From: Pseudofrankia inefficax
GTDB lineage: Bacteria; Actinomycetota; Actinomycetes; Frankiales; Frankiaceae
Direction: 5' to 3'
DNA length: 64,000 nucleotides
Assembly (NCBI RefSeq): GCF_000166135.1
Contig: NC_014666.1
Coordinates: 7,936,001 to 8,000,000 of the forward strand
A program made the position numbers and the translations under genes. The notes beneath the pieces were generated by a model. The model was not told the DNA's origin and made no database searches. It saw only the letters and a list, made by a program, of their open reading frames with translations. Positions 48,296-57,945 of the stretch are shown piece after piece (the stretch's first letter is position 1; every line of letters starts with the position of its first letter).

Positions 48296-48712
48296 ATGAA
48301 TGGTCGCGCAAAGCCGCGGCGCGGTTCGTGGGCACGGAACGTCACCCGGGTCGCTGCGGGTGCCGCGATGGTGACCGCCGGGACCGGCCATCTCTCGTTC
48401 GCCCGCGAGGACTTCCAGGCTCAGGTCCCCGACTGGGTTCCGCTGGACAAGGACACGACCGTCCTCGCCTCCGGCGTCGTCGAGATCGCCATGGGCGCGG
48501 CCCTGATCGGCCTCCCACGCCACCGGCGTCTCGTCGGCGCGACCTTGGCCGCCTTCCTCGTCGCTGTCTTTCCGGGCAACATCAGCCAGTACACCGGTCA
48601 CCGCGACGGACTCGGTCTCGACACCGACCGCAAACGCGCGGTCCGTCTGCTGTTCCAACCATTGATGGTCGCCGTGGCGTGGTGGTCCACCCACGACAGC
48701 GGCGCGTCCTGA
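48296..48712 (+). CDS. DoxX-like membrane protein
   Basis: A 138-aa protein with four transmembrane helices: VTRVAAGAAMVTAGTGHLSF, a LASGVVEIAMGAALIG helix, LAAFLVAVFPGNISQYTGH and a final LLFQPLMVAVAWWS. The PGN..QYTGH.DG loop is typical of DoxX-like proteins tied to redox and oxidant resistance in actinobacteria. ATG with GGGAG upstream. It follows the hydrolase after 55 bases on the same strand. Confidence 0.8.
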   Translation: MNGRAKPRRGSWARNVTRVAAGAAMVTAGTGHLSFAREDFQAQVPDWVPLDKDTTVLASGVVEIAMGAALIGLPRHRRLVGATLAAFLVAVFPGNISQYTGHRDGLGLDTDRKRAVRLLFQPLMVAVAWWSTHDSGAS

Positions 48713-48891
48713 ACGGACGATCACGGCCCGACCCGGGCGCCGGCGACCGACCCCTGTCCAACCGCCCCACCGTCGTCCTAGCGGCCGCCCCACCGTCGCT
48801 GTTGGCCCCAGCGACCGCCACATTCCTGAGCCATGTGCGACGTTGCGCCAAAGTGGGATTTAGGCGGACCCGCGCGGGCAAGTGGGGGTTC

Positions 48892-49437
48892 GTGAAGACG
48901 ATTCGGGCCTCCGCTCAACACGTCGCCGATCAGGTTGCGGGCCTCGTCCGCTCGGAGGCGGGCGAGTACTCCGGTGCAGAACCCCGTCCGCTCGGTGGCT
49001 ACGTCGTCACCCTCGCGGCCTACGGAGGGCTCTGCGCCTCCATGGTCGGGGTCGCGAAGCTGGCCGGCGCCACACCCCCCGAACGCACCAGCCCCGCGGA
49101 TCTTCTGCTGATCGCGACCGCGACGCACAAGCTCAGCCGGATCCTCACCAAGGATCCGGTCACGAGTCCGCTGCGGGCGCCGTTCACCCGCTTTCGCGGC
49201 GTCTCCGGTCCCGCCGAGCTGACCGAGGACGCCCGCGAGTCCCCCTCCCTGGTGCACAGCACCGGAGAACTGCTGACCTGCCCGTTCTGCACGGCGCAGT
49301 GGGTGGCGACCGGATTCTTCTTCGGGCTCGTCGTCGCCCCGCGCTTCACCAGGCTGGCCGCCTCCGTCTTCACCGCCGTCGCCGGAGCCGACGTCCTCCA
49401 GTTCGCCTACAGCCGCCTCGAACAGACCGCCGAATAG
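48892..49437 (+). CDS. DUF1360-family membrane protein
   Basis: A 181-aa protein with a hydrophilic start, one helix (TLAAYGGLCASMVGVAKLAG), the cytosolic ATATHKLSRILTKDPVTSPL and a TCPFCTAQW Cys pair before two final helices (ATGFFFGLVVAPRFTRLAAS). This is the DUF1360 pattern. GTG 48892 chosen by the family start. CPFC could bind a metal or form a disulfide. Function unknown. The antiporter operon starts 114 bases on. Confidence 0.78.
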   Translation: MKTIRASAQHVADQVAGLVRSEAGEYSGAEPRPLGGYVVTLAAYGGLCASMVGVAKLAGATPPERTSPADLLLIATATHKLSRILTKDPVTSPLRAPFTRFRGVSGPAELTEDARESPSLVHSTGELLTCPFCTAQWVATGFFFGLVVAPRFTRLAASVFTAVAGADVLQFAYSRLEQTAE

Positions 49438-49551: not shown

Positions 49552-50103
49552 GTGAGGCGGGACCGACGGTGGATCGGCGCCGCGGTGTGGGTGTTCGTCG
49601 GCGCCGCGGTCTGGTTGGTCTCCCTGGCGTCCCTCGCCGCGGTGTCGGTAGCCGAGTGTGTCGCCGCGCTGGTGGCGGGCGTTCTCGGCGCGACGGCCGC
49701 GGCCCTGGGCCGTCGCGCGATCGGACAGGCCGGCCCGGGCTCCGACGCAAGGGGGCGGCGGGAGCCGCACCCGCGGGCTCGTTGGCGGCTGGTGGCCCGG
49801 CTGCCGGCCGCTGTCCTGGCCGATACGGGACGCGTCTTCGTCCAGGCGGCGCGGCGCGACTCCGTCGGCGGGCTTCGGGTCCTGTACCTCGACGCGGCCG
49901 GCGAGGGCGCCCATGCCGCGAGAAATCGCGTCGCGGCCACGATGCTGCTCGGGGTCACGCCTGGCACCTACGTCACCGACGTCGACCGCGACACGGGCGT
50001 CGTGACGATCCACGCGCTCGTCCCGCCGTCGGCGACCGAACGCGCCCTGGATCGGTCGGCGACCGGACCGCCGGCCGATGGCGAACGAAGGGAGACACGG
50101 TGA
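49552..50103 (+). CDS. mnhE: Mrp/Mbh-type antiporter subunit E (MrpE/MnhE-like)
   Basis: A 183-aa protein with two N-terminal membrane helices (GAAVWVFVGAAVWLVSLASL and the following VAALVAGVLGATAAA) and a cytosolic domain (RNRVAATMLLGVTPGTYVTD) with the MnhE signature. First gene of a seven-gene operon to 53906. GTG start at 49552. Subunit E is small and helps assemble the antiporter. Confidence 0.85.
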   Translation: MRRDRRWIGAAVWVFVGAAVWLVSLASLAAVSVAECVAALVAGVLGATAAALGRRAIGQAGPGSDARGRREPHPRARWRLVARLPAAVLADTGRVFVQAARRDSVGGLRVLYLDAAGEGAHAARNRVAATMLLGVTPGTYVTDVDRDTGVVTIHALVPPSATERALDRSATGPPADGERRETR

Positions 50104-50357
50104 GCGGATTCGGCTGGTGCGCCTGCGCGCTGCTGATCGGCGGGGTCGGCCCGGCGGTGGTGCTCGCGTCCCGGGGCGACGCGGCCCGACGGATGGTCGG
50201 CCTGCAGCTCGGATCCGCGGTGACGGTTCTGCTGTTGATGCTGCTGGCGCAGGCGTTCGGTCAGCCGTCCTATCTGGTGGTGCCGTTCGTGGCGGTGCCG
50301 TTGTCGGTCGCGGGGACCTTCGTGTTCACCCGGCTGCTCCCGTCGCGGCGGTCCTGA
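50100..50357 (+). CDS. mnhF: Mrp/Mbh-type antiporter subunit F (MrpF/MnhF-like)
   Basis: An 85-aa protein with three transmembrane helices: CALLIGGVGPAVVLASRGDA, LQLGSAVTVLLLMLLAQAFG and VPLSVAGTFVFTRLLP. Size, topology and place between E and G fit MrpF. GTG start overlaps the mnhE stop (GTGA). Confidence 0.78.
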   Translation: MSGFGWCACALLIGGVGPAVVLASRGDAARRMVGLQLGSAVTVLLLMLLAQAFGQPSYLVVPFVAVPLSVAGTFVFTRLLPSRRS

Positions 50358-50659
50358 TGCACGTCGGGGCGCTGTGCTGTGTCGCCGTCGGCACCGGGGT
50401 GATCGTCGTGACCGCGATGCTGGCGCTGGTGACCAGGGGCCGGTTCTTCGTCCGGCTGCATCTGGTGACGCCGGTGACGTCGTTGGCCGGGCCGCTGATC
50501 GGCCTGGGGCTGGTCCTGGAGAACGGTCTCGGCTTCACCGCGGCGCAGATCGCCGTGATCGTGCTCGCGTTGGCGGTGGCCAGTCCGGCGATGCAGGCGG
50601 CGACCGCCCGGCTCGGGGCGATCGAGGCGGGCAGCGCGGCCCCGGAGCCGGCCGAGTGA
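50357..50659 (+). CDS. mnhG: Mrp/Mbh-type antiporter subunit G (MrpG/MnhG-like)
   Basis: A 100-aa protein with three helices; FFVRLHLVTPVTSLAGPLIG with R and H is the MrpG motif, flanked by VIVVTAMLALVTRG and VIVLALAVASPAMQA. ATG overlaps the mnhF stop by one base (TGATG). The C-terminus is Ala/Glu-rich. Confidence 0.82.
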   Translation: MHVGALCCVAVGTGVIVVTAMLALVTRGRFFVRLHLVTPVTSLAGPLIGLGLVLENGLGFTAAQIAVIVLALAVASPAMQAATARLGAIEAGSAAPEPAE

Positions 50660-50901
50660 GCGCGCTCGACGTGCTGCTGCCCGCGGTGCTGACGCTGCTG
50701 GTCGTGGGCGCGTTGGCGGTGGTGCTGACCGACGACCCGGCGAGGCAGGCGGTCACTCTCTCGGTCTATGGGCTGCTGCTGACGATCCTGTTCGTGCTGG
50801 TCCAGGCGCCTGACGTCGCGTTGAGCCAGGTGGCGGTCGGGACGGCGGTGGTGCCGCTGCTGATCCTGCTCACCCTCCGCAAGATCCGGAGCCGGCGTTG
50901 A
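50656..50901 (+). CDS. DUF4040 (MbhD-like) subunit
   Basis: An 81-aa three-helix protein (LLPAVLTLLVVGALAVVLTD, LSVYGLLLTILFVLVQAPDV, TAVVPLLILLTL). It matches the DUF4040/MbhD segment that in classical Mrp antiporters is part of the C-terminal region of the large subunit MrpA. Here it is a separate gene, as in archaeal Mbh complexes. The VQAPDVALSQ stretch carries the conserved Asp. GTG start, overlapping upstream and downstream genes. Confidence 0.8.
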   Translation: MSALDVLLPAVLTLLVVGALAVVLTDDPARQAVTLSVYGLLLTILFVLVQAPDVALSQVAVGTAVVPLLILLTLRKIRSRR

Positions 50902-51668
50902 GTGGCGAGGCGGCCGGCCGGGGGCGGCGCGCCCGGTTGGCGATCTTCTGCGTGGGTGGCGCGGGGGTGGCTGTGCTGTTCGGGCTGGCGGTCTTCGGGC
51001 TGCCGGCGCCGGGTGGGGACGACCATCCCTACCGGGATCGGGCGGTGCCGGCGGCGGTGTCGCACGGGACCGCGAACGTGGTGTCGTCGGTCAATTTCGA
51101 CCTGCGCGCGATGGACACCCTCGGGGAGGAGGCGATCCTGTTCGCGAGCGTGCTCGGGGTCGCGGCGCTGGCGCGTCCCACCACCGGGGAGAACGAACGA
51201 CGGCTGCGTGCCCCGCGCGAGCAGGTCCTGGACGCCGCCCGGGCGACGGCGGCGGTGTTCTTCCCGGTGACGCTGGTCGTCGGGCTGGATGTCGTCCTGC
51301 ACGGCGCGCTGACCCCGGGCGGCGGTTTCCAGGGCGGGGTGATCCTGGGCACCGGCATCCATCTCGTCTACATCGCCGGCGGCTACCGGGCGCTGCTGCG
51401 GGTCCGCCCGCTGGACGTGTTCGAGCACGGCGAGGCGGTCGGCATGGGCGCGTTCGTCGCCGCCGGTGTCGCCGCGCTGCTCGTCGGCGGGTCGTTCCTG
51501 GGCAACGTCGTGCCGACCGGCCGGCTGGGGAGCCTGACCTCGTCGGGAACCGTCGAGCTGCTCAGCCTCGCGGTGGGGGTGGAGGTCGCCTCGGCGGTCG
51601 TCGTCCTGCTCGCCGCTTTCCTGACCCAGCTCCTCGAGATCGGCGACCGCCCGGAGGCCGACCAGTGA
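50898..51668 (+). CDS. mnhB: MbhE-MnhB fusion subunit of the antiporter
   Basis: A 256-aa protein. Residues about 15-90 resemble MbhE/the end of MrpA: a first helix, NVVSSVNFDLRAMDTLGEEA and LFASVLGVAALARP. Residues about 110-250 are MnhB: VLHGALTPGGGFQGGVILGT, GTVELLSLAVGVEVASAVVV. So two Mrp modules are fused in one gene. The start is a TTG overlapping the previous stop (TTGA); no better start exists. Confidence 0.82.
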   Translation: MSGEAAGRGRRARLAIFCVGGAGVAVLFGLAVFGLPAPGGDDHPYRDRAVPAAVSHGTANVVSSVNFDLRAMDTLGEEAILFASVLGVAALARPTTGENERRLRAPREQVLDAARATAAVFFPVTLVVGLDVVLHGALTPGGGFQGGVILGTGIHLVYIAGGYRALLRVRPLDVFEHGEAVGMGAFVAAGVAALLVGGSFLGNVVPTGRLGSLTSSGTVELLSLAVGVEVASAVVVLLAAFLTQLLEIGDRPEADQ

Positions 51669-52015
51669 TCAGATACGCGTATCTCGTCGCGGTGGCGATC
51701 ATGCTGATCGGCGCGTTCGGGATGGTCCGGGCCAAGAACCTGATCAGTCTCGTCACCTGCCTGTCCGTCGCGCAGTCGGGCACCTACGTGCTGCTCGTCG
51801 CGGTCGGGTTCCAGCGCGGCGCGCCGGCGCCGGTGTTCGGCGAGCCGGCGAGCCCGCCGACGATCAGGGTCACCGACCCGCTCGTGCAGGCGATGGCGCT
51901 GACCGACGTCGTCGTCTCCGCGACCGTCACCGCCCTGCTGCTCGCCCTGACGATCCAGGTCGCGAAGACGCACGGGACGATCGACCCGGACGAGCTGTCC
52001 TCGCTGCGCGGCTGA
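51665..52015 (+). CDS. mnhC: Antiporter subunit C (MnhC/MrpC, NuoK-like)
   Basis: A 116-aa NuoK-like protein with three helices: IRYAYLVAVAIMLIGAFGMV, NLISLVTCLSVAQSGTYVLL and the last DVVVSATVTALLLALTIQVA. LVQAMALTDVVV is the conserved segment with the buried polar residues of NuoK. GTG start overlapping the mnhB stop (GTGA). Confidence 0.88.
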   Translation: MIRYAYLVAVAIMLIGAFGMVRAKNLISLVTCLSVAQSGTYVLLVAVGFQRGAPAPVFGEPASPPTIRVTDPLVQAMALTDVVVSATVTALLLALTIQVAKTHGTIDPDELSSLRG

Positions 52016-52040
52016 GCCGCGGGCAGACCGACGCCGTGCC

Positions 52041-53906
52041 ATGAGCTGGGCCGATCCCGCGCACCTCGCGCCGCTGACCGTCGCGCTGCCGCTGTTCGTC
52101 GCGGCCTTGGTCGTCGGCCTGCACCGCTGGCTGCCACGGTGGGCGCTCGACGGCCTGACGCTGCTGGGCGCCGCCGGGGCTGGGCTGATGGCGCTGCGGC
52201 TGGCGTTCGCCGCGGCCCACGCACCTGTCGTCGCATGGATCGGCGGCTGGACCCCGGTCGACGGGTACAGCGTCGGGATCGTCCTCGTCGCCGACCGGGC
52301 GGGCGCCTGCGCGGCCGTGGGCGCGGCGGTGCTGGTGTGCGCGTCGCTGATCTACGGCTGGCGGTACTTCGACGCCGTCGAGGGCCGCTACCACGGCCTC
52401 GTGCTGCTCCTGCTCGCCGGTATGGAGGGCTTCGCGCTCACCGGGGACCTGTTCGACCTGTTCGTGTTCTTCGAGCTGATGGGCGCGGCGTCCTACGCGC
52501 TGACCGGCCTGAAGATCGAGGACCCGCCCGCCGTGCAGGGCGCGCTGTCGTTCGGCGTCGTGAACAGCCTCGGCGCGTACATCGGGCTGATGGGCATCGC
52601 GCTGCTCTACGGCCGGACCGGGACGGTGACGCTGGCGAACCTGGGCCCGGCGCTGGGCCGCCATCCCGCCGACGCGCTGACCCTCGCCGCGTGCGCCGCG
52701 GTCCTGACCGCGTTCCTGGTCAAGGCGGCGGCGGTGCCGTTCCACTTCTGGCTCGCGGACGCGCACGCCGTCGCGCCGAGCCCGGTGTGTGTGCTGCTGT
52801 CCGGGGCGCTGGTGCCGCTCGGCCTTTACGGCGCGTTCCGGGTGTACTGGACGACGTTCAGCACGGTTCTCCCGCCGGGGCACATCCGGGTCGTGTTCCT
52901 CGTCCTGGGCACGGTGACGGCGCTGGTCGGCGCGGTCATGTGCCCGTTGCAGCGGCATGCGAAGCGGCTGCTGGCCTACTCGACGATCGCCCACGTCGGC
53001 CTGCTGCTGCTCGCCGCCGGCTGCCTGACCGGGATCGGCACCGCCGGCGCCGCGATCTACGTCGCCGGGCATTCGGCGGTGAAGGCGGCGCTGTTCCTGA
53101 TCGTCGGGACGCTGCTCAACCGCTACGGCACCGTCGACGAGCACGATTTGCACGGCCGGGGGCGTGCCATGCGGGTGCTGCCCTGGCTCGCCGTCGCCGG
53201 GGGCCTGGCCCTGGCCGGGCTGCCGCCGTTCGCTACCGCGCTGGGAAAGCAGTTCGGTGAGGAGGCGGTCGGCGAGGTCGGCCAGCCGTGGCTGGCCGCT
53301 GTGTTCGTCGTCGTGTCGGCGCTGACCGGGGGCGCCGTGCTGCGCCTGGCCGGACGGGTGTTCTTCGGCTTCGGCCCCCGTCCCGAGACCTCAGTCGACC
53401 CGGAGGAGACCAGCGGCGCCGAAGAACCGGAGGCGGCGACCTCGACGATCCGGGTCACGATGCTCGTCCCGATCGTCGTGCTGCTGGCGGTCGCCCTGGT
53501 CCTCGGGGTCCTGCCCGCGACAGGCGGCGCCGCCGGGCGGCTCGCCGCGGCGTTCACCGACCCCGCCGGCTACGCGACCTGGGTACTGCACGGGCACGCA
53601 CCCGCAGGACGACCCGACCCGACGACGGCGAACAACGTCGGCGCGGGCTGGACCATCGCCGGGATCCTCGCTGGCGGCCTGTCCACGCTGCTGGCCTTGG
53701 CGTTCGCTGCCTGCGCGCTGTGGCTGCCGGCCGCGGCGCGGCGATCGGAGCCGGTGCGGGCCGCACTCCAGGGCCTCGACGGTGCCAGCCGGCTCGTCGT
53801 CGGTCCGCTGCGCCGGGCACATTCCGGCCATGTCGGTGACTACGTCGCGTGGCTGATCAGCGGCGTCGCGGCCCTCGGCACGCTGCTCGGCCTCGCGGCC
53901 CACTGA
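52041..53906 (+). CDS. mnhD: Antiporter subunit D (MnhD/MrpD, NuoN/L-like)
   Basis: A 621-aa integral membrane protein with about 14-16 helices and the proton-conducting transporter fold. DLFDLFVFFELMGAASYALT carries the key Glu in helix 5; AFLVKAAAVPFHFWLADAHA the helix 7 Lys; GHSAVKAALFLIVGTLLNR the helix 12 Lys region. It is the only large antiporter-like (NuoL/M/N) subunit in the operon; the N-terminal NuoL-like half of MrpA is not present. The last helices (AHSGHVGDYVAWLISGVAAL) extend beyond the core. Confidence 0.92.
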   Translation: MSWADPAHLAPLTVALPLFVAALVVGLHRWLPRWALDGLTLLGAAGAGLMALRLAFAAAHAPVVAWIGGWTPVDGYSVGIVLVADRAGACAAVGAAVLVCASLIYGWRYFDAVEGRYHGLVLLLLAGMEGFALTGDLFDLFVFFELMGAASYALTGLKIEDPPAVQGALSFGVVNSLGAYIGLMGIALLYGRTGTVTLANLGPALGRHPADALTLAACAAVLTAFLVKAAAVPFHFWLADAHAVAPSPVCVLLSGALVPLGLYGAFRVYWTTFSTVLPPGHIRVVFLVLGTVTALVGAVMCPLQRHAKRLLAYSTIAHVGLLLLAAGCLTGIGTAGAAIYVAGHSAVKAALFLIVGTLLNRYGTVDEHDLHGRGRAMRVLPWLAVAGGLALAGLPPFATALGKQFGEEAVGEVGQPWLAAVFVVVSALTGGAVLRLAGRVFFGFGPRPETSVDPEETSGAEEPEAATSTIRVTMLVPIVVLLAVALVLGVLPATGGAAGRLAAAFTDPAGYATWVLHGHAPAGRPDPTTANNVGAGWTIAGILAGGLSTLLALAFAACALWLPAAARRSEPVRAALQGLDGASRLVVGPLRRAHSGHVGDYVAWLISGVAALGTLLGLAAH

Positions 53907-54525: not shown

Positions 54526-55503
54526 TCATGCGAGGGAGGCGGCGCCGGCGCGGGAGCGCAGAGGGCCGGCCAGTTCGGAGTGGAAGAAGTCCAGGAAGTC
54601 GTCCGGGTCGGGGCCGGCGTTGAGCAGGACCAGCGTGTCGAACCCGGCGTCGAGGAACTGGTCGGCGACCGCGAGATGGCGGGCCGGGTCCGGGCCGCAG
54701 GCGAAACGTTCGGCCACGTCGTGCTCGGTGATTGTCGTCGTCGCGGCGGCGAAGTTCACTGGGTTGGGCAGTTCGCTCATCACCTTCCAGCCGGTCAGCG
54801 CCCAGCGGGTGGTTTCCAGCGCGGCCCGGGCCGCGGTCGTCTCGTCGGGCGCGTAGGCCAGCGGGATCTCGGCGTAACGCGGACCGTCGCCACCGGCGGC
54901 GCGGTAATGGTCGACGATGGCGGCCTTCGGCTCGGTCGCGAACAGCGCGTCGCCGCATTCGGCGGCCAGCCGGGCTGACGGCTCGCCGCTGGCCGCGACG
55001 GCGATCCGCGGTGGAACCGGCGGCAGGTCGAAGACCCGGGCGTCCTCCAGGCGCAGGTAGCGGCCTTCGTAGGACTGGTAGCCGCCGCTCCACAGCAGCC
55101 GGATGATCTCGATCGCCTCGCGCAGCATCGCGTGTCGCCGCGTCACCGCCGGGTAGCCCTGGCCCACCACGTGCTCGTTGAGGCGCTCCCCCGAGCCGAG
55201 CCCGAGCATGAAGCGGCCATCGGAGAGCAGGGCGACCGTCGCCGCGGCCTGCGCGATCACCGCCGGGTGGTAGCGGATCGTCGGGCAGGTCACCCCGGTC
55301 GCGAGCCCGATGCGGTCGGTGGCCTGCGCGATCGCGCCGAGCAGCGACCAGGTGAAGGCCGAGTGTCCCTGACTGTCGAGCCAGGGATGGAAGTGGTCGC
55401 TGAGCTCGACGAAGTCGAAGCCGGCGGCCTCCGCGGCGACGGCCTGCCGGATGATCTCCTTCGGCCCGAACGGCTCGGTCGCCAGTTTGTAGCCGATCCG
55501 CAT
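54526..55503 (-). CDS. F420-dependent LLM-class oxidoreductase (copy 2)
   Basis: A 325-aa protein related to copy 1 at 27502. Start MRIGYKLATEPFGPKEIIRQ, SDHFHPWLDSQGHSAF, TGVTCPTIRYHP and LGLGSGERLNEHVVG are the F420-binding LLM signatures, as in F420-dependent glucose-6-phosphate dehydrogenase-like enzymes. ATG with GGGAGAGC upstream. Convergent with the receiver gene. Substrate unknown. Confidence 0.9.
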   Translation of the reverse strand: MRIGYKLATEPFGPKEIIRQAVAAEAAGFDFVELSDHFHPWLDSQGHSAFTWSLLGAIAQATDRIGLATGVTCPTIRYHPAVIAQAAATVALLSDGRFMLGLGSGERLNEHVVGQGYPAVTRRHAMLREAIEIIRLLWSGGYQSYEGRYLRLEDARVFDLPPVPPRIAVAASGEPSARLAAECGDALFATEPKAAIVDHYRAAGGDGPRYAEIPLAYAPDETTAARAALETTRWALTGWKVMSELPNPVNFAAATTTITEHDVAERFACGPDPARHLAVADQFLDAGFDTLVLLNAGPDPDDFLDFFHSELAGPLRSRAGAASLA

Positions 55504-55705
55504 CGAAGCTCTCCCTCCGCCGGTCGCGTGCCTGGATGGCACTCCCTAGCCGCCACCGTTCCCAGCAGGAGCGTGGGAAATCAGGTCTGGGATGGGGCGC
55601 CGGGTGGCCATCGCCGCGCGGCATGCGCCAGCGGCTCGGACACACGACACGGGCCGTATCGGTCAGCAGGCGTCAGGCCGGCCGCGCGGGGGAAGATGAC
55701 CGATC

Positions 55706-56254
55706 ATGACGGGCGCGGACGAGGCAGCGTCGGGCGACGACCGGACACCGCCGGACGGGGGTTCCGGCCGCGAGCGCGGCGAGTCTCCGGAGGCGCGGCG
55801 TAACCGGAACTGGGGGGAGATCCTCCAGGAGCTGCGGGTCGTGCAGACCGGGGTGCAGCTGATCACCGCTTTTCTGCTCGCGCTGCCGTTCCAGAGCCGG
55901 TTCGCGACGCTGACCCGTTCCCAGCAGTCGCTGTACCTCGCCGTCGTGAGCCTGTCCATCCTCGCGACCGGCCTGCTGGTGACCCCGGTCGGGCTGCATC
56001 GCGCAATGTTCCGCAAGAAGGAGAAGGAAACCCTCGTCATCGTCGCCAACCGCCTCGCGCAGGCCGGTCTGGCCGTGTTCGCCGTCGCGGTCGCCGGCGT
56101 CGCGGCCCTCATCTTCGACGTCACGCAGGGCCGCACCGCCGGCGCCGTCGCCGGCGGAGTCACGCTGCTGCTGCTCGGAACGCTGTGGGCCGGCGTGCCC
56201 GCCATGATCCGGTCGACGCAGGCGGAAGCGGAGGAACAGCCCCGGCCGCGCTGA
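55706..56254 (+). CDS. DUF6328-family membrane protein
   Basis: A 182-aa protein: a hydrophilic, acidic start of 35 residues, then ILQELRVVQTGVQLITAFLL, LPFQSRFATLTRSQQSLYLA and further helices to about residue 165, four in all. The LQELRV.QTGVQ..TAFLL..PF pattern is that of DUF6328. Function unknown. ATG start; no operon partner on this strand. Confidence 0.78.
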   Translation: MTGADEAASGDDRTPPDGGSGRERGESPEARRNRNWGEILQELRVVQTGVQLITAFLLALPFQSRFATLTRSQQSLYLAVVSLSILATGLLVTPVGLHRAMFRKKEKETLVIVANRLAQAGLAVFAVAVAGVAALIFDVTQGRTAGAVAGGVTLLLLGTLWAGVPAMIRSTQAEAEEQPRPR

Positions 56255-56287: not shown

Positions 56288-57193
56288 CTACGCCTGGGCC
56301 GGTGTGCTGACGTCGACAGGGTTGACCCGCAGCGCCCTCTCTTCGCGGCGGCGGACCTGGAGGCGGCCGTCCCGCGCGCGCACCTCGTACCGCGGCTGCG
56401 GGCGGGTCGCCGGCCCGCGTCGGACCGCGCCGGTGCCGAGCGCGAAGCGGCTGCCGTGCCAGGGGCAGACGACACAGTCGCCGTCGCGCTTGCCTTCGGA
56501 CAGCGAGCCGCCACGATGGGTGCACCGGTCGGCCAGCACCACGATCCGGCCCTCCAGGCGAGTCACCAGCAGCGGGACCCCGCCGACGTCGACCCGTCGC
56601 GGGACGTCGGTGACGTCGGCGGCGGACCCGGCGTCCGTCCATTCGGTCGGACCGGCCTGGAAGGCTGTGGTGTCCACGCCGACACCCTGCGCGTAGGCGA
56701 GATGACCGCCAAGCCAGCCGCCGACACCGAGCACGCCGGCCCCCGCCAGGCCGGCGAGACGCCCGGACCTGCCCTGCCGGCGCTGCCACCACGACAGGGC
56801 GTAGGCACTCAGGCCGACGGCGTTGGACGCCGCGTGCACGACACCGACACGGCGTTCCGCCTCCTGCGTGTCCAGCCAGTCCGACCAGCCCGCCAGCGCC
56901 GCCGGCCCGGCCGCGAGCAATCCGAGGCCGACAAGTCGCCGCGCGCCACGGCGAGCGTCGGGTCCCCCGACCAGGTCCAGGGCGGTGGCGCTCAGGAGGG
57001 TGCCGGCCGGCACCAGCACGGCGGCCGGGTGCAACGGATGACCGAGCTGGCGGCCGCTCAGCAGATCGCGCAGCCGCTCTGAGGACAACGTCCGCGACCA
57101 GAAGCCGGCGAGCCGCTCGGCGAGGGGGTCGATTACTCGCGCTCCTTCGACTGCCTCGACGAGCCGTTCGGTCCGCGGGCCGGCCATGTCCAC
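56288..57193 (-). CDS. Rieske iron-sulfur protein with DUF2231 membrane domain
   Basis: About 301 aa. The N-terminal half has four transmembrane helices (LVGLGLLAAGPAALAGWSDW; AGAGVLGVGGWLGGHLAYAQ) of the DUF2231 type. The C-terminal half is a Rieske [2Fe-2S] domain with CTHRGG and CPWHGS, the two Cys and two His ligands. It should pass electrons at the membrane, probably in a defence or respiratory side route. GTG 57193 has GAGGGG upstream; ATG 57187 is an alternative, and the frame is open to 57268. It overlaps nothing; the HAD gene ends 51 bases upstream of it. Confidence 0.88.
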   Translation of the reverse strand: MDMAGPRTERLVEAVEGARVIDPLAERLAGFWSRTLSSERLRDLLSGRQLGHPLHPAAVLVPAGTLLSATALDLVGGPDARRGARRLVGLGLLAAGPAALAGWSDWLDTQEAERRVGVVHAASNAVGLSAYALSWWQRRQGRSGRLAGLAGAGVLGVGGWLGGHLAYAQGVGVDTTAFQAGPTEWTDAGSAADVTDVPRRVDVGGVPLLVTRLEGRIVVLADRCTHRGGSLSEGKRDGDCVVCPWHGSRFALGTGAVRRGPATRPQPRYEVRARDGRLQVRRREERALRVNPVDVSTPAQA

Positions 57194-57243
57194 GTCCGTT
57201 CCCCTCTCTTCGCGCGGCGTCGACGTCTGCTCCCAAACGGCGC

Positions 57244-57945
57244 CTACCCGTTGGAATCCCGCGCACACTTCAGCAGCCGGCCGATCGGGGAGTCGTCGAG
57301 GTGGGCCAGCAGGTCGTCCGGACCTGTGTAGACGGCGCTCGCTCCGGCCTCGGTGAGCTCGTCGGCGCCGATCCCACCGGTCAGGACGGCCACACAGCCC
57401 AGGCCCGCCCGCCTGGCGGCCAGGACGTCCCAGCGGCTGTCGCCGACCATCACCGCGTTCGCCGGGTCGGCACCCGAACGCTCCAGCGCGACCTCGAGGA
57501 TGTCCGGCGCCGGTTTCGAGCTGTCCGCGTCGGCCGGCGACGTCACCGCGCTCAGACAGTCCTCCACGTCGAGCGCGGAACGCAGCGCACGCAGCTCGGC
57601 GGCGGGCGCTGACGTCGCCAGCACGACCCGAACGCCGCGGCGCGCGACCTCGCGGACCAGCTCGCGAGCCCCCGGCAGCGGCTGGATCAGGCCGATGAAC
57701 GGACGGTAGTGCTCGCTGCGCGCGGCGGTCAGGATCTCGTCCCGGGCGCGGTCGCGGTCCGGGAGCAGGGCGTCGAGCAGCCGGTCGGAACCCATGCCGA
57801 TGTGACGGTGGATCGCCGCCATCGTCGGATGGTGGCCCTCCTGAGCGAAGGCGCGCGACCAGGCGATGGTGTGGCCGTAGTTGGTGTCGGTGAGCGTGCC
57901 GTCCAGGTCGAACAACACAGCACGAACGGGATCTGTCACAGCCAT
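57244..57945 (-). CDS. HAD-superfamily phosphatase
   Basis: A 233-aa HAD hydrolase of the phosphoglycolate phosphatase-like group. Motif I VLFDLDGTLTDTNYG, motif II LATSAPAAEL, the Lys in SSKPAPDILEVAL and motif IV VMVGDSRWDVLAAR are all present. A helical cap lies between motif I and II. It dephosphorylates a small phosphate ester, not determinable here. ATG start. Probably cotranscribed with the Rieske gene downstream. Confidence 0.9.
   Translation of the reverse strand: MAVTDPVRAVLFDLDGTLTDTNYGHTIAWSRAFAQEGHHPTMAAIHRHIGMGSDRLLDALLPDRDRARDEILTAARSEHYRPFIGLIQPLPGARELVREVARRGVRVVLATSAPAAELRALRSALDVEDCLSAVTSPADADSSKPAPDILEVALERSGADPANAVMVGDSRWDVLAARRAGLGCVAVLTGGIGADELTEAGASAVYTGPDDLLAHLDDSPIGRLLKCARDSNG

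Follow-up and report, generated by a model that had tools for sequence, protein, structure and literature searches.

An MrpA-less Mrp-family operon of Pseudofrankia inefficax belongs to a separate clade with exchanged ion-path residues

The operon and its genes

The stretch analysed here (the window) comprises 64,000 nucleotides of Pseudofrankia inefficax (NCBI RefSeq assembly GCF_000166135.1, contig NC_014666.1, positions 7,936,001 to 8,000,000) and contains a seven-gene operon related to Mrp antiporters and to the MBH and MBS complexes of Pyrococcus furiosus. The operon lacks MrpA and belongs, with relatives from six phyla, to a separate clade in which several ion-path residues of canonical Mrp are exchanged. 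Its genes lie at positions 49552-53906 of the window on the + strand, in the order E-F-G-mbhD-mbhE/mnhB-C-D and with all frames open; each neighbouring pair from E through C overlaps by 1–4 bases, and a gap of 25 bases separates C from D. Gene order, strand, coordinates and the 621-residue length of the last product agree with an earlier interpretation made from the letters of this DNA (the sequence-only reading).

49552..50103, + strand: MnhE/MrpE-like subunit, 183 residues, GTG start; PF01899 (MNHE) 26.3 bits, slightly below the cut-off of 27
50100..50357, + strand: MnhF/MrpF-like subunit, 85 residues; PF04066 (MrpF_PhaF) 29.1 bits, cut-off 23.3
50357..50659, + strand: MnhG/MrpG-like subunit, about 100 residues, ATG at 50357; PF03334 (PhaG_MnhG) 24.9 bits, cut-off 23.4
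50656..50901, + strand: MbhD/DUF4040, part of the MrpA C-terminal domain, 81 residues; PF13244 64.3 bits, cut-off 27.2
50898..51668, + strand: MbhE-MnhB fusion, 256 residues, TTG start; PF04039 (MnhB) 74.7 bits, cut-off 22.5
50934-51179 and 51240-51602, + strand: MbhE and MnhB parts of the fusion; PF20501 (MbhE) 25.0 bits, slightly below the cut-off of 27
51665..52015, + strand: MnhC/MrpC-like subunit, 116 residues; PF00420 (Oxidored_q2) 65.4 bits, cut-off 26.1
52041..53906, + strand: MnhD/MbhH-like antiporter subunit, 621 residues; PF00361 (Proton_antipo_M) 176.9 bits, cut-off 21.5

Pfam family models are available for all seven genes, two of them (MNHE and MbhE) scoring slightly below cut-off, and none of the seven proteins reaches a curated cut-off among the NCBIfam models listed (for MnhD, the best 25 of 74). 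Sequence matches in the PDB support four of the six proteins searched, namely the fusion, MnhD, MbhD and MnhC, with MnhE outside this search. The best match of MnhD is 6cfw_H (MbhH; E 2e-49), and MnhC matches 6u8y_G, 6cfw_G and 7qru_C. The sole match of MnhF is weak (6u8y_B, E 0.14), and the same search returned no related match for MnhG. MnhG, MnhF and MnhE are the weakest assignments; MnhE has counterparts in the same slot of the related loci (clade X, below), and its His131e and Pro114e equivalents are retained.

A separate MbhD (DUF4040) gene and an MbhE-MnhB fusion had both been proposed in the sequence-only reading, and both held up in the domain search. By phmmer, the fusion matches MbsE (6u8y_E) with E 1.9e-17 over residues 56-234 and MbhE (6cfw_E) with E 3.4e-6. 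Its AlphaFold model, with a predicted local distance difference test (pLDDT) score of 81, also has 6u8y_E as its best PDB match (Z 17.9, root-mean-square deviation (rmsd) 3.5, 197 residues, span 33-247), followed by Dietzia MrpA (Z 15.2), and MrpB/MbhF chains cover the second half only. The gene content is of a known kind, because group 3 Mrp systems, which lack mrpA and have a stand-alone example in Pyrococcus, and the MbsE fusion of MbhE and MnhB have both been published (Haja and Adams, PMC8415708). A group 3 cluster is also mentioned for Microbacterium sp. TS-1 (PMC8415708).

MrpA and hydrogenase genes in the genome

The N-terminal MrpA channel had been described as missing from the operon, and a PF00361 profile search found no MrpA anywhere in the 8.8-Mb one-contig genome. 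The search hit four places: MnhD of the window and three proteins at 7.709-7.713 Mb, which score above the NCBIfam thresholds as NuoL, NuoN and NuoM. Outside nuo, MnhD is the sole PF00361 protein of the whole genome, and no second antiporter subunit of the MbsH' type was found in it. Among relatives searched in the same way, the genomes of Methylobacterium fujisawaense (L083) and Legionella santicrucis (L086) contain four PF00361 places apiece, of which one is at the related operon and the other three lie close together; those of L062 and L066 have 11 and 6. No hydrogenase adjoins the operon, as had also been claimed; the sole PF00346 match, at 7.72 Mb, is close to nuoLMN, and the sole PF00374 gene of the genome is at 3.30 Mb.

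Haja and Adams (2021) delimit group 3 Mrp by the absence of mrpA together with one or more mrpD, and this combination is what the genome holds; Ito et al. (2017) define the group differently, via irregular gene order (PMC5703873). The genome search thus places no MrpA near the operon, and the domain search supports the MbhE assignment. The sequence-only reading is partly supported: it is incomplete, and the gene arrangement it describes is of an already published kind.

A separate clade of loci with a single D gene

Relatives were collected by a genome-contig scan with the fusion protein as query, the named loci being the best 80 of 474, and the gene maps showed two layouts. Layout X is E-F-G-mbhD-mbhE/mnhB-C-D, with one D of roughly 570-630 residues; layout Y typically has a D of about 490 residues followed by a second D. 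Because they contain NuoH (18/23) and a 49-kDa homologue (14/23), the Y loci look like MBH/MBS-type respiratory clusters. Neither gene was found at any of 58 clade-X loci (the window and 57 named loci, out of 76 clade-X loci in total), 37 of which have flanks of 4 kb or more on each side. Loci were sorted by script and the result corrected by hand, L068 and L047 being reassigned to X and six loci marked 'Y?' to Y. Rows with fewer than 150 filled D columns were excluded, the canonical comparison rows are actinobacterial only, and the counts given below omit rows that have a gap at the column in question.

A D-subunit tree was built from 72 rows (31 of the 76 X rows, and 10 or 11 rows per other group). 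In this tree, a branch with SH-aLRT support of 100 separates the 31 X rows from those of Y, canonical MrpD and MrpA. The single D gene is part of the definition of X and so is not independent evidence for it, whereas the tree is. It is very probable that the operon encodes an MrpA-less Mrp-family complex forming its own clade. Clade X extends over Actinomycetota, Pseudomonadota, Acidobacteriota, Planctomycetota (3 loci), Myxococcota (2 loci) and Chloroflexota (1 locus, on a short metagenome-derived contig). No description of the clade or of its residue exchanges was found in open-licence papers.

The spread is patchy, with matches at E<1e-50 in 19 of the 393 genomes of a class survey (window included), which suggests accessory inheritance; among 35 genomes of the same family, only the window's own has such a match. 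Mobile carriage was considered and rejected, since a single one of 72,556 plasmid records has a relative at E<=1e-15, and this is a 1.16-Mb Streptomyces replicon.

Two oddities were seen outside clade X. In the MBH/MBS-like loci L109 and L116 the antiporter-type (D) match occurs twice in one frame of about 1045 residues, and their rows stand in both the first-D and the second-D sets of Y. At L131, one antiporter open reading frame (ORF) filed as MrpD groups among MrpA in the tree.

Residues lost, gained and kept

Positions are alignment columns, given with published numbering where available. MrpF Asp35 of A. flavithermus (Asp38 of B. pseudofirmus; column 34) is Asp in 21/21 Y and 10/10 canonical rows and in 0/73 X rows, which have Gln (23), Glu (19), Asn (14) or other residues; in the window, Arg30 and Gln36 align with Mrp Asp29/32 and Asp35/38. 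The Glu of MrpA at 706/687 (MbhD column 61) is present in all 29 canonical rows and in none of 74 X or 23 Y rows, the latter having Gly. At column 57, which is Glu in MBH, X rows have Gln (49), Glu (24) or Ala (1), Y rows Glu (23/23) and canonical rows Gln (29/29). The window protein has Gln58 and Gly62 at these two sites, leaving MbhD with no acid at either key position. Further, LysTMH8 of the antiporter subunit (MnhD column 258) is Lys in 23/23 canonical MrpD, 24/24 MrpA and 19/22 first-D rows of Y, while the second D of Y has Arg (12) or Lys (7; n=19); X rows have Lys in 0/73, with Glu (48), Ser (10), Pro (4) and others instead, Pro in the window.

A new acid appears in MnhC, where column 79 is Asp in 74/74 X rows and in none of 51 rows outside X (0/23 in Y, 0/28 canonical). 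Two further MnhC columns, 35 and 39, are Gln and Tyr, each in 74/75 X rows; the window residues at the three columns are Gln37, Tyr41 and Asp81. All 68 clade-X loci that could be scored at all four positions have the joint pattern, with Asp35, LysTMH8 and Glu687 absent and the MnhC Asp present.

51905..51907, + strand: codon of MnhC Asp81, invariant in clade X
52815..52817, + strand: codon of MnhD Pro259, at the LysTMH8 position

Other functional positions are retained in clade X. These include the MnhD equivalents of Glu137 and Lys219 (74/74 each; Glu145 and Lys228 in the window), MbhE Asp73 (75/76) and Glu77, the Glu780/796 equivalent (76/76), both present in the window fusion, the Thr75 equivalent of MnhC (74/74), the His131 equivalent of MrpE (62/62) and the Phe of the MnhB PGGGF motif (76/76). 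The window MnhD also keeps Lys403. LysTMH12 is present in the window, yet in only 19/56 X rows. MrpC His37 and His40 were tried as diagnostic positions and dropped, as canonical actinobacterial rows also vary there (Asn/His).

The pattern was checked at separate loci from a phylum survey with a profile of the fusion (396 genomes, 47 matches at E<1e-30), from which 20 regions were picked, excluding genomes already used. Thirteen were single-D loci; the other seven (L179-L185, Actinomycetota) have three or four D genes after mrpC and a fusion of the MbhE-MnhB type. The single-D loci have the MnhC Asp in 13/13, Lys at LysTMH8 and Glu at 687 in 0/13, and MrpF Asp35 in 0/12 (Gln 7, Glu 5). In a distant subset of seven, MnhC column 35 is His (4) or Gln (3), and column 39 Trp (4), Tyr (2) or His (1). 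The multi-D loci have the MnhC Asp in 0/7, Lys at LysTMH8 in 18/23 and Gly at the Glu687 position in 7/7. Because of these loci, it is the MnhC Asp together with the loss of LysTMH8 that marks clade X, and not Asp35 or Glu687 alone.

With several canonical residues lost, the operon could be viewed as a decaying, non-functional Mrp remnant. The seven genes are open, six of them with overlapping ends, and the operon recurs across phyla with many invariant positions. In MnhD, 25 columns are invariant across 46 sequences, which argues against decay, and the D gene is in pieces only in L047, L075 and L099 among the named loci. The remnant reading is disfavoured, and its chance appears minimal.

An ordinary stand-alone group 3 Na+/H+ antiporter like P. 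furiosus mrpEFGBB'CD, with the residue changes as tolerated drift, deserves more attention. It has the identical subunit set, without MrpA or a redox module (PMC8415708), and the operon retains the second sodium-loading site SLS2 (Glu780) together with the PGGGF Phe and the Glu/Lys pair. However, the first sodium-loading site, Glu687, is termed strictly conserved (PMC9568556) and an Asp35Leu mutant of MrpF is inactive (PMC7419157), while both positions are non-canonical in every scored clade-X row. P. furiosus Mrp is reported to share several highly conserved ion-path residues with MBH and MBS; of such a path, clade X keeps the Glu137, Lys219 and Glu780 equivalents and fails at MrpF Asp35 (0/73) and LysTMH8 (lost in 73/73). 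Drift also does not explain the fixation of a new Asp, and we regard this alternative as unlikely.

The MnhD tail and the search for a partner

The sequence-only reading counted MnhD as a single antiporter-like subunit, which it is within the operon; it is not a plain MnhD, as its last 80 or so residues form a tail of the NuoL/MrpA type.

53655..53900, + strand: transmembrane (TM) helix 15, short helix and TM16 extension of MnhD, NuoL/MrpA type, from model helices and structural alignment

The MnhD model (pLDDT 93.4, predicted TM-score (pTM) 0.94) has helices at 539-568, 570-593 and 598-620 beyond a 14-TM-type core. The match to MrpD chains spans residues 4-518 (7qru_D, Z 44.2, rmsd 1.9, 481 residues), and that to E. 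coli NuoL chains spans 6-604 (7zci_L, Z 40.4, rmsd 3.0, 522 residues). Tail columns are filled in 55/76 X rows, the remaining 21 ending at the locus edge or being pieces, and in 1/27 canonical MrpD rows, and the tail aligns with an MrpA segment in 28/29 MrpA rows. At the later single-D loci, the tail Asp/Glu occurs in 13/13. The core of MrpA continues into a lateral helix held by two TM helices (PMC9568556).

Such a tail could allow the complex to act as a membrane arm docking an unlinked redox or other energy-input partner, as MBH and MBS do. In Table 2 of Haja and Adams, the MbhI N-terminus and MbsH' TM15-16 are placed in the hydrogenase-anchoring module (PMC8415708), and formate-dehydrogenase-like genes lie near 6/58 clade-X loci. 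Yet the tail does not align with the second D of the MBH/MBS-like loci (0/19 rows), no partner recurs widely (the 49-kDa homologue and NuoH being found at 14 and 18 of 23 MBH/MBS-like loci against none of the 58, of which 37 have 4 kb of flank on each side), and formate dehydrogenase is found at 0/13 later single-D loci. Docking is thus a rather improbable role.

A fixed redox partner was rejected after clustering of the flanks of the 58 loci, in which the top recurrence was 9/58. This is a luciferase-like (PF00296) monooxygenase, in the window at 54526-55542 on the - strand. Stricter clustering of flanking ORFs gave 6 of 58 for the luciferase-like and 5 of 58 for the formate-dehydrogenase-like genes; both were found at 0/13 later single-D loci, and a formate-dehydrogenase-like match at 3/7 multi-D loci. 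Among 217 flanking ORFs from 34 loci, no Pfam family occurred at more than four loci among the best 25 of 121 and 25 of 176 families listed.

The formate-dehydrogenase-like molybdopterin oxidoreductases lie near the operons of L045, L049, L066, L076, L077 and L087, with Fer4 and NrfD in some; at L049, L066, L076 and L077 the gene is split into two adjacent ORFs, as may be caused by a selenocysteine TGA. L056 is the sole case of the 58 with a NiFe-hydrogenase large-subunit homologue in the flank. In the window, a DUF1360 protein (48328-49437, + strand) lies upstream of the operon, and a DUF6328 membrane protein (55706-56254, + strand) and a protein combining a DUF2231 membrane domain with a Rieske [2Fe-2S] domain (56288-57268, - strand) lie downstream.

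A proposed mechanism and its meaning

Our preferred explanation, to which we give a probability of roughly 0.55, is that the operon encodes an MrpA-less complex of its own clade that most likely works as a stand-alone secondary cation/H+ exchanger with a moved coupling carboxylate. The seven subunits would assemble into one MrpA-less complex of the Mrp (CPA3) family, in which the proton-motive force would drive cation exchange. Protons would pass the single MnhD channel via the conserved Glu145/Lys228 pair. The carboxylate coupling protons to the cation would have shifted from MrpA Glu687/706 and MrpF Asp35/38 to MnhC Asp81, placed between that pair and a retained exit site that it adjoins, formed by MbhE Asp73/Glu77 and the MnhB motif PGGGF. 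The role of the MrpA end cap may be taken by the tail of MnhD. By alignment, the clade-X MnhC Asp corresponds to about residue 76 of MrpC, next to Ile77, and its position adjoins a barrier that has been described along the path of sodium. Judged from sequence as a claim of its own, cation/H+ exchange at a site that has moved comes close to an even chance without reaching it. A changed ion has precedent, because a Ca2+/H+-exchanging Mrp is on record (PMC5703873).

A proton-conducting or pH-sensing complex that moves no second cation, with the sodium module as a scaffold without ligands, is a further alternative. Of the four double-cavity ligands known from publications, three (Glu706a, His37c and His40c) are replaced, two of them His positions that vary in canonical actinobacterial rows as well, and the MrpF entry Asp is lost. 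However, every sodium-module subunit is present and the exit carboxylates are nearly invariant, and a bare proton leak would be a cost to the cell, so that this alternative is distinctly unlikely.

Several points weigh against the exchanger with a moved carboxylate. An acid is retained as Glu at the Asp35 position in 19/73 X rows, and the MBH-type Glu of MbhD is kept in 24/74, not including the window. At the seven multi-D loci the Asp35 position is always Asn, so that this Asp is less universal than published, and published substitutions there were highly detrimental in E. coli and not in B. subtilis, where Glu and Asn alone were tried (PMC7419157). The exchanges are one inherited event, and their counts go back to a single origin instead of recording independent events. 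MnhC Asp81 could have a structural role instead, and the exchanger function is a prediction from sequence.

The coupling of Mrp and complex I is disputed, with mutually exclusive models (PMC9568556). Clade X dispenses with MrpA and with several residues central to these models, yet the operon persists across phyla, and an expressed clade-X operon would show which model parts are required. We offer tentatively, at less than even odds, that clade X couples protons to another ion or to none and thus forms a natural mutant set for this dispute. Automatic 'Na+/H+ antiporter subunit' labels in Streptomyces, Methylobacterium, Acidobacteria and Legionella may misstate the ion.

Comparison with known systems

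The stand-alone Mrp of P. furiosus (PF1147-53, PMC8415708), compared by description only, shares with the window operon the absence of the MrpA N-terminal channel and of an energy-input module, the single D and the order E-F-G-B-B'-C-D. It differs in having MbhD and MbhE fused and MnhB separate; several of its ion-path residues are reported as conserved, and no equivalent of MbsH' TM15-16 is listed for it in that source. P. furiosus MBS (6u8y) has in MbsE the same MbhE-MnhB fusion, the best structural match, and in MbsG the best MnhC match, but it also contains MbsH' as a further antiporter subunit and a redox module, both of which the window operon lacks.

The sequence-only reading had stressed a likeness to archaeal Mbh, which holds for the architecture and for the nearest solved chains (6cfw_H, 6u8y_G and 6u8y_E) and fails for the active-site chemistry and the separate D clade. 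P. furiosus MBH (6cfw) has homologues of mbhA-H in equal order, with MbhH the best PDB sequence match of MnhD, whereas the window lacks the hydrogenase module, LysTMH8, the MrpF acids and the MbhD Glu. The operon is not simply an Mbh module minus its hydrogenase, given the separate D clade and the loss of residues kept in MBH/MBS-like loci.

Canonical Mrp of groups 1 and 2 (6z16, 7qru, 7d3u) shares homologues of MrpB, C, D, E, F and G and the MrpA C-terminal domain; the window lacks the MrpA N-terminal 14-TM channel, Glu687/706, Asp35/38 and LysTMH8 and has the extra MnhC Asp. With NuoL of complex I the operon shares the TM15-helix-TM16 tail of MnhD, whose helix between the two TM segments is only about 24 residues long in the model, on an MrpD-type core and without a quinone module. 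Across these comparisons, the architecture is known, while the clade and its chemistry appear to be new.

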